From the NCBI GenBank assembly GCA_023145965.1, contig JAGLDC010000017.1, positions 1 through 47,625 on the forward strand: 47,625 nucleotides of DNA. Direction: 5' to 3'. The number at the start of each line of letters is the position of its first letter. Within the stretch, counting starts at the first letter, position 1. Below, piece by piece: positions 1 to 662 of this stretch. The notes beneath the pieces are model-generated. The model did no database searches. It was not told the DNA's origin and was given only the letters and a program-made list of their open reading frames with translations. Origin of the DNA: a bacterium (GTDB lineage: Bacteria > UBP14 > UBA6098). The position numbers were made by a program, and so were the translations under genes.

Positions 1-333
1 AACATCCATTTTGCCTTCTTCAAGGTTTTTCAAGATATCAATCCTATCATTTGATTCGATAGGTATCTCATCGAGGCCAAGTGCGATATTTATCTCTCGA
101 AGACGGGTTTTTACTGTCGGATAACTAAGTCCAAGGCGCGCCTCCATTTGCTTAATATTTCCTCCGGATGCCAAAAAAGCCCCCACTATCCCTACTTGCT
201 CTCGATTCAAATTATCAAAAGGTCCCGCCTCAAATTTACCGCGAACAGTAATATCACATTTAGGACAATAGTATTCTGTGACAATTACCTCGCCATTACA
301 AGATGGGCACCCTTTTAGTTTTTTCAGTTCCAT
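1..333 (-). CDS. DUF2089-family zinc-ribbon/HTH protein (3' end cut by window edge)
   Basis: The reading frame starts at the ATG at 333, behind an AGAGG ribosome site, and stays open to the left edge, giving 111 residues without the C-terminus. The first 35 residues hold two CxxC pairs (GCPSCNG and YYCPKCD), a zinc ribbon. The next part, with QVGIVGAFLASGGNIKQMEA followed by LGLSYPTVKTRLREI, looks like a helix-turn-helix. This layout is that of the DUF2089 family, small proteins thought to be DNA-binding regulators; the actual target is unknown. It is transcribed away from the inverted-repeat region at 434-662. I am confident in the family but make no functional claim beyond likely DNA binding. 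Confidence 0.8.
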   Translation of the reverse strand, partial: MELKKLKGCPSCNGEVIVTEYYCPKCDITVRGKFEAGPFDNLNREQVGIVGAFLASGGNIKQMEARLGLSYPTVKTRLREINIALGLDEIPIESNDRIDILKNLEEGKMDV

Positions 334-513: not shown

Positions 514-662
514 GGGCGGCATCGCGCAGAATGATATAATCATTCTGCCAACGGCAGGCCGATTAATCATTTAATACAAATTGCAATATCTCGCTCCGGC
601 CTGCCGAACTTTAGCTTTATCGGAAAGCTAGCTTTCCGATAAAGCTAAACGCGACGCCGCCC
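514..662. repeat. Cloverleaf-like element of nested inverted repeats
   Basis: An outer stem pairs 514-526 with 650-662 (13 bases, one mismatch). Inside it lie three further inverted repeats: 527-535 with 539-547 (9-base arms, 3-base loop), 552-561 with 597-606 (10-base arms, 35-base loop) and a perfect 40-base palindrome at 610-649. On one strand this folds as a closed four-way junction. No open reading frame of note is present. It could be a small non-autonomous mobile element, a REP-type element or a structured RNA. Confidence 0.65.

Follow-up and report, generated by a model that had tools for sequence, protein, structure and literature searches.

What is the compact nest of inverted repeats that lies near one end of the DNA analysed here, a stretch of 47,625 nucleotides (hereafter the window)? 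The original prediction described it as four inverted repeats folded like a cloverleaf, and allowed for a miniature mobile element, a REP-type structure, a replication or recombination signal, or an RNA. We think it probable (roughly 0.62) that this nest is a single copy of a dispersed, non-autonomous, REPIN-like mobile repeat that is recognised and kept as folded DNA. The family to which this copy belongs consists of repeats of about 150 bases with one shared architecture, arms that are free in sequence and complementary, no wobble or strand bias, and both filled and empty orthologous sites.

The nest is exactly as it had been described (Table 1). The arms of the 13-base outer stem pair at 12 of 13 bases, and the single mismatch is A.C on the plus strand and G.T on the minus strand. 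Base 526 can pair either in the outer stem or in the short hairpin. The perfect 40-base palindrome can be read directly from the sequence and is the longest perfect hairpin in the 47.6-kb window (arms of at least 10 and loops of at most 8 nt). Single-strand folding of positions 505-670 gives a four-way junction. The RNA fold reached -92.2 kcal/mol on the minus strand (z -10.8) and -85.5 kcal/mol on the plus strand (z -11.9), and the DNA fold of the plus strand reached -53.0 kcal/mol (z -10.5). Each of these three folds was better than all 200 dinucleotide shuffles.

Table 1. Positions of the cloverleaf, its parts and the adjoining gene in the window
Feature	Position	Strand	Remark
Gene for DUF2089 zinc-ribbon/HTH protein	1..333	-	continues on contig C15
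Whole cloverleaf element	514..662	.	model matches span 512-664
Outer stem, left arm GGGCGGCATCGCG	514..526	.	direct reading
Short hairpin	526..548	.	10-bp arms 526-535/539-548, 3-nt loop
Middle arm, left strand CGGCAGGCCG	552..561	.	
Middle loop, AT-rich, 35 nt	562..596	.	variable among copies
Middle arm, right strand CGGCCTGCCG	597..606	.	
Long hairpin, perfect 40-base palindrome	610..649	.	610-629/630-649
Outer stem, right arm CGCGACGCCGCCC	650..662	.	direct reading and folds

The DUF2089 gene is cut by the end of the contig. The window contig begins with an overlap of exactly 150 bases with the end of another contig of the assembly, C15, and therefore the two contigs probably join inside this gene. 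The gene on the other side of the cloverleaf encodes a 473-aa protein that has no Pfam or NCBIfam match. By comparison, a retron ncRNA would be expected next to a reverse transcriptase gene, and an integron attC site would go with core sites and an integron integrase. The 473-aa gene is flanked by a second repeat (942-1041 and 2491-2590; 92% identity over 100 bases) with an inner inverted repeat in each copy, which was found only in the window genome among the six genomes searched. A 14-bp inverted repeat, GCAACTTATGACCA/TGGTCATAAGTTGC, occupies 455-484, in the gap that separates the cloverleaf from the DUF2089 gene; by eye, a weaker version of it is present at the same place in the congener G002.

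In a blastn search, the window element matched only itself in its own genome (G000) and nothing in 60 relatives. This apparent uniqueness is misleading, since the family is not conserved in sequence. An element lies upstream of the DUF2089 gene both in the window genome and in G002. The G002 counterpart is a cloverleaf with similar outer and middle stem cores and unrelated hairpins (fold z -8.5 and -8.7), and it scores 75.8 bits with R1, a covariance model for which the window copy was the only input. The order of the long and short hairpins relative to the gene is swapped between the two copies, which may reflect inversion or exchange of arms. No element was found in the 1.0-1.5 kb examined upstream of the DUF2089 gene in G001, G003 and G004.

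Over 17 genomes, R1 detected further copies in G000 and G002 only. Seventeen copies, two of them turned to put the long hairpin first, were aligned (alignment A5) and used to build model R2. In 17 genomes of the class, R2 matched in G000, G001, G002 and G003 and in none of the other 13, including G004, which is of the same family and 80% complete. With strands merged, there are at least 100 distinct copies (at least 24, 23, 42 and 11 in G000 to G003, respectively); these are lower bounds, with up to 150 candidates scored per genome. A broader model, R3, derived from 82 strand-level matches in 39 of 91 sources, gave at least 46, 112, 109 and 34 strand-level matches in the same four genomes, many copies being counted on both strands, and none in the other 13 genomes of the class. 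On its minus strand the window copy scores 194.4, 108.2 and 58.3 bits with R1, R2 and R3, the first of which was built from it, and its plus strand is also matched by R2 and R3. The model E-values are rough. The R2 copies score at least 39.5 bits; as a control, 728 kb of viral DNA (80 loci, among the matches listed, of one loose sequence pattern) yielded three R2 matches with E<=1, the best of 20.5 bits (E 0.11). With R3, 1.16 Mb of loci from viruses and bacteria contained no match at that threshold. The exact core pattern was matched in four of eight genomes, and the same pattern read backwards in none of the eight. No match was obtained when one element copy each was compared with phages and plasmids, or when two specific element patterns were searched in viral contigs. 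The cloverleaf family was not found in the open-licence literature with limited sets of search terms.

The copies share a common anatomy. In the orientation of the models, which is the minus strand of the window, the order is GGCGTCGG, long hairpin, middle arm, short hairpin and CCGACGCC. The long hairpin measures 20-24 bp in many copies of G000 and G002 and has a base of free sequence and the tip GGAAAGC-NN-GCTTTCC, which many copies of these two genomes share with the window palindrome. The middle arm has a GGCC-type core and a loop of about 30-40 nt. The short hairpin is CGCGCATGCGCG in many G002 copies, and in other copies its sequence and length vary while pairing is kept. In Watson-Crick-only folds, 96 of 100 copies have exactly three branches inside the outer stem. 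The exact block GGCGTCG...CGACGCC is present at both ends of 83 of 100 copies, and CGTC is paired in 88 of 100 (minimum-energy Watson-Crick fold). In model orientation, the GGCGTCG columns are invariant in all 17 rows of A5, and two pairs of the middle stem are G-C in all 17. The window copy, with its G.T in the block, reads GGCATCG in the left outer arm where most copies have GGCGTCG, and its right outer arm carries the family block GGCGTCG on the minus strand. Outer stems are often extended by copy-specific pairs (z of inverted flank similarity 3.4 in G001, 4.2 in G002 and 0.7 in G000). The flanks were displayed for 90 of 100 copies, ten without an anchor being left out. By eye, several G001 copies (among L212-L231) are preceded at about 20 bases by a GATTTT-like motif and followed at about 14 bases by a GCGAAAA-like one, and similar motifs can be seen at the edges of the middle loop. 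One G002 record (L128:1501-1641, contig C28) has NN at the centre of its long palindromic hairpin, which may reflect a sequencing stop at the fold or else an operator mask.

Placement was determined for the 89 copies outside G003 relative to mechanically found ORFs of at least 90 aa. Ten copies that overlap an ORF of more than 200 aa and four without an ORF on one side dropped out. Of the 75 classified copies, 44 lie between codirectional ORFs, 19 between divergent and 12 between convergent ones. Relative to codirectional ORFs, 23 copies have the same and 21 the opposite orientation; this count is weak because orientation was taken as the better-scoring strand of a near-symmetric model. The distance to a gene 3' end was 30 nt or less in 35 of 68 cases, and that to a gene 5' end was below 50 in 12 of 82.

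The arm sequences differ widely between copies, and complementarity stays. In A5, 30 of 40 pairs show a double change, with 136 doubly changed cells against 28-43 when the partner column is slid. Thus, a unique, non-conserved sequence without compensatory changes in the stems, which the original prediction had named as its refutation, is the opposite of what was found: at least 100 copies in four of 17 genomes of the class, a corresponding element upstream of the same gene in a congener, and stems that change in pairs. In a second alignment of the 23 G001 copies (A6), 74 cells are changed on both sides and only eight on one side, seven of the eight at one pair; sliding the partner reduces the doubly changed cells from 74 to 6-17. 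Most of the unpaired cells in A6 (28) are at the four outermost pairs, and further pair types show no excess over shuffles (29 versus 28.7). In the G003 set, 14 of 43 pairs are doubly changed and pairing is kept.

Covariation is usually read as proof of a functional RNA. The cloverleaf could accordingly be transcribed and act as a terminator, an mRNA 3' stabiliser or a small RNA, and the very stable RNA folds on both strands and the frequent position within 30 nt of gene 3' ends (35 of 68) agree with this. If RNA were selected, G.U should outnumber A.C on the RNA strand. Indeed, 26 tRNAs used as a control show G.U in 59 of 640 pairs in the sense and in 22 of 598 in the antisense direction, and their single mismatches are five G.T and no A.C. 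The element copies without N have G.U in 251 of 5668 pairs versus 232 of 5600 on the other strand, that is, without a bias of the tRNA type. Folding the 100 copies with Watson-Crick pairs only gave 5415 pairs; the single mismatches were 22 G.T, 24 A.C and 74 of other kinds, and those of codirectional copies, read on the transcribed strand, were 13 G.T and 16 A.C. G.T and A.C are thus equally rare, which sets the element apart from tRNAs, and copies are oriented at random to genes; the structure is therefore probably maintained at the DNA level. The 19 of 75 classified copies between divergent ORFs also speak against a transcribed unit, and Rfam gave no match over the element at E<=1; its one sub-threshold match, at 454-485, is outside the element. 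The RNA option of the original prediction is therefore disfavoured, and we regard a structured RNA as quite improbable; most likely, the structure is kept as DNA rather than RNA.

How can arms change together at the DNA level? Template switching is described as able to create and maintain perfect stems (PMC8794818). We propose that switching from arm to arm copies mutations across, which would explain paired changes with few intermediates, and the arms of the cloverleaf probably change together by copying of this kind. Because arm copying could yield it, the covariation seen here is not by itself proof of a selected function. At the extreme, the cloverleaf might be the remains of hairpins that had inserted into one another, its covariation arising from template switching only, with neither function nor present mobility. 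Nearly all changes are paired with few intermediates, as arm copying predicts, and degenerate copies are present in G000. Yet the same three-arm architecture in 96 of 100 copies and the close similarity of G001 copies (mean 0.81, highest 0.93) indicate propagation as a unit, so that such a relic seems very improbable to us. Since about 100 copies covary strongly without wobble bias or strand preference, the family lends itself to testing both DNA-level structure and mutation by arm copying.

The distribution of copies between genomes raises the question of whether the elements move at all. When flanks were matched across genomes, the element was found at the same gene end in 17 of 18 cases (a count without a computed chance expectation), a pattern that speaks for hotspots or for positions fixed long ago and not for free movement. 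The cloverleaf may thus occupy fixed chromosomal sites, where it would be extruded or form on the lagging strand and be bound by a structure-specific protein, the positions being kept because they are functional. The nearly constant junction core amid free sequence and the lack of wobble bias suit such sites as well as the shared gene ends do. Such a protein could be a junction binder or a nucleoid, replication or repair factor. However, R2 detected as few as 11 copies in one genome and as many as 42 in another, nine G003 copies fall within coding sequence, and G004, which is of the same family and 80% complete, yielded none. Moreover, two orthologous sites are filled in G000 and empty in its congener G002: one between genes of 175 and 865 aa, and the other between genes of 209/228 and 541 aa. 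On this evidence, fixed functional sites are unlikely.

Shared positions do not mean similar copies. Fourteen shared-site pairs, picked by eye, have identities of 0.57-0.66, and random pairs among G000-G002 are no lower (means 0.64-0.65). Within genomes, mean identity is 0.65 in G000, 0.69 in G002, 0.78 in G003 and 0.81 in G001, and copies of G000 are no more similar to each other than to those of other genomes. Positions are thus partly shared, and copies are genome-typical in G001 and G003, weakly so in G002 and not in G000. A family with shared positions but dissimilar copies at them would be expected from any of three processes: in-place replacement, fast turnover, or hotspots that receive insertions repeatedly.

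In G003, nine of 11 copies are in frame near the 3' end of ORFs. From their sequence, these copies read as sitting inside the C-terminal sorting domain of type IX secretion, and Por_Secre_tail scored below its cut-off in both proteins scanned. Of the remaining copies, L241 is intergenic, and no intact ORF of 90 aa surrounds L238. The stretches examined in G000, G002 and G003 also contain sorting-like domains that lack the element. Another in-frame insert (IARSASDEAIS...RPRND type), which presumably resembles the peptide of classic CGTC-REP/RPE repeats, was seen in sorting-like domains of G000 and G002 (L165 and L209). The cloverleaf family thus provides a case of in-frame use within what appear to be secretion sorting domains.

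A tentative second reading is that of a mobile or self-maintaining DNA in which the inherited unit is the shape and not the sequence: a four-way junction would be recognised by its geometry and 7-bp core, its arms rewritten by template switching, its copies replaceable in place, and in one lineage it would have become part of sorting signals. Under the mobile-repeat reading, which we prefer, the core (GGCGTCG/CGACGCC in the outer stem and a GGCC-type middle stem) would stay nearly fixed and the hairpin arms would be interchangeable. Replication would expose the element as single-stranded DNA and let it fold, an enzyme acting in trans would cut and re-insert the folded element, and the element would have spread mainly through intergenic DNA. 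Arm-to-arm template switching during replication would probably copy mutations between arms. The within-genome likeness in G001, G003 and, weakly, G002 would fit recent spread or gene conversion.

Genes for Y1/IS200-like proteins were considered as the candidate mobiliser. They are present in 11 of 12 genomes searched, with 1-3 matches per genome and element-free genomes included. Up to 1.5 kb on each side of the Y1 loci, there was no R2 match at 13 loci and no R3 match at five; only one 10-bp hairpin was seen, at a distance of about 0.9 kb from a Y1 gene in G002. Three Y1 proteins scored below the NCBIfam IS200 cut-offs and reached 15.8-21.0 bits against the RAYT cut-off of 80. A Y1/RAYT partner was rejected because of the near-universal presence of these genes, the lack of elements within up to 1.5 kb on each side and the low scores. 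A small IS200-like HUH/tyrosine gene (L248-L252, L255) is kept across the class without adjoining elements and is perhaps a domesticated enzyme.

Of the options originally put forward, a mobile element or REP-type structure fits best: the dispersed, structure-conserved family supports it, although the target-site duplications proposed as a check were not found. In G000, G001 and G002, the genomes covered by this test, words shared by left and right flanks are no longer than in shuffled pairings (z 1.8, 1.0 and -0.2, respectively), and direct repeats are not enriched in the flanks. A MITE with target-site duplication was rejected for lack of this signal. Like ERIC, Correia and RUP, the cloverleaf is small and dispersed and has inverted ends and a stable fold; in these MITEs the terminal inverted repeats are of a set length and the target site is duplicated, whereas the cloverleaf outer stem varies beyond its core and shows no duplication signal (PMC2229807). 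It also resembles the Rickettsia palindromic elements (RPE), palindromic repeats of 105-146 bp found in intergenic regions and in frame in genes. However, RPE are modelled as long stem-loops, and the in-frame cloverleaf copies seen are confined to the sorting domains of one genome (PMC2229807).

REPINs are closer relatives in design. They consist of two REPs in inverted orientation around a spacer that pairs, compensatory changes are common in them, and a tyrosine transposase has been proposed to move them (PMC3116915); REPIN/BIME units are inverted doublets of GTAG-tagged REP hairpins with RAYT/TnpA-REP as the proposed mobiliser (PMC3116915, PMC6006769). The cloverleaf is likewise mostly extragenic and dispersed, with two inverted hairpins, pairing spacer ends, compensatory changes and a conserved block 5' of each hairpin foot (PMC3116915, PMC6006769). 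The inverted hairpin doublet with a self-complementary spacer was found in 96 of 100 copies and in A5 and A6. By analogy, the cloverleaf probably works like a REPIN, with its inverted hairpin pair, a conserved block 5' of each foot (each on its own strand) and the self-complementary spacer. It differs in its block, which includes CGTC and forms part of the paired outer stem, whereas that of REPINs is an unpaired GTAG/GTGG, and in its long hairpins (20-24 bp in many copies), free sequence and four-way junction (96 of 100). In the place of an unpaired GTAG/GTGG 5' of each hairpin stands the block GGCGTCG...CGACGCC, exact at both ends in 83 of 100 copies, and no repeat-flanked RAYT gene was found within 1.5 kb on either side of the Y1 loci searched.

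The core CGTCATTGCGAG, which we take to be typical of CGTC REPs, is present in all five genomes of the family (17, 14, 18, 13 and 9 matches in G000 to G004). Because it is also found in G004, in which neither R2 nor R3 gave a match, the cloverleaf is a separate family beside these REPs. CGTC-tagged REPs form dimers with structured spacers near gene ends, apparently without a dedicated transposase (PMC3733652). The cloverleaf matches them in carrying CGTC on the outside of its inverted hairpin pair, in its dimeric layout with a structured spacer, and in being mostly intergenic, near gene 3' ends and without a known dedicated transposase (PMC3733652). CGTC REPs differ in their stems of 8-9 bp opening with A-T pairs, unpaired CGTC and CCA-type tail (PMC3733652); judged by eye, the cloverleaf hairpins are not of this stem type, and their CGTC is paired in 88 of 100 copies rather than unpaired. 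The cloverleaf thus shares the layout of REPINs and CGTC REPs and fails the tests that define either, and as a REPIN-like repeat it would extend this kind of element to a deep bacterial lineage.
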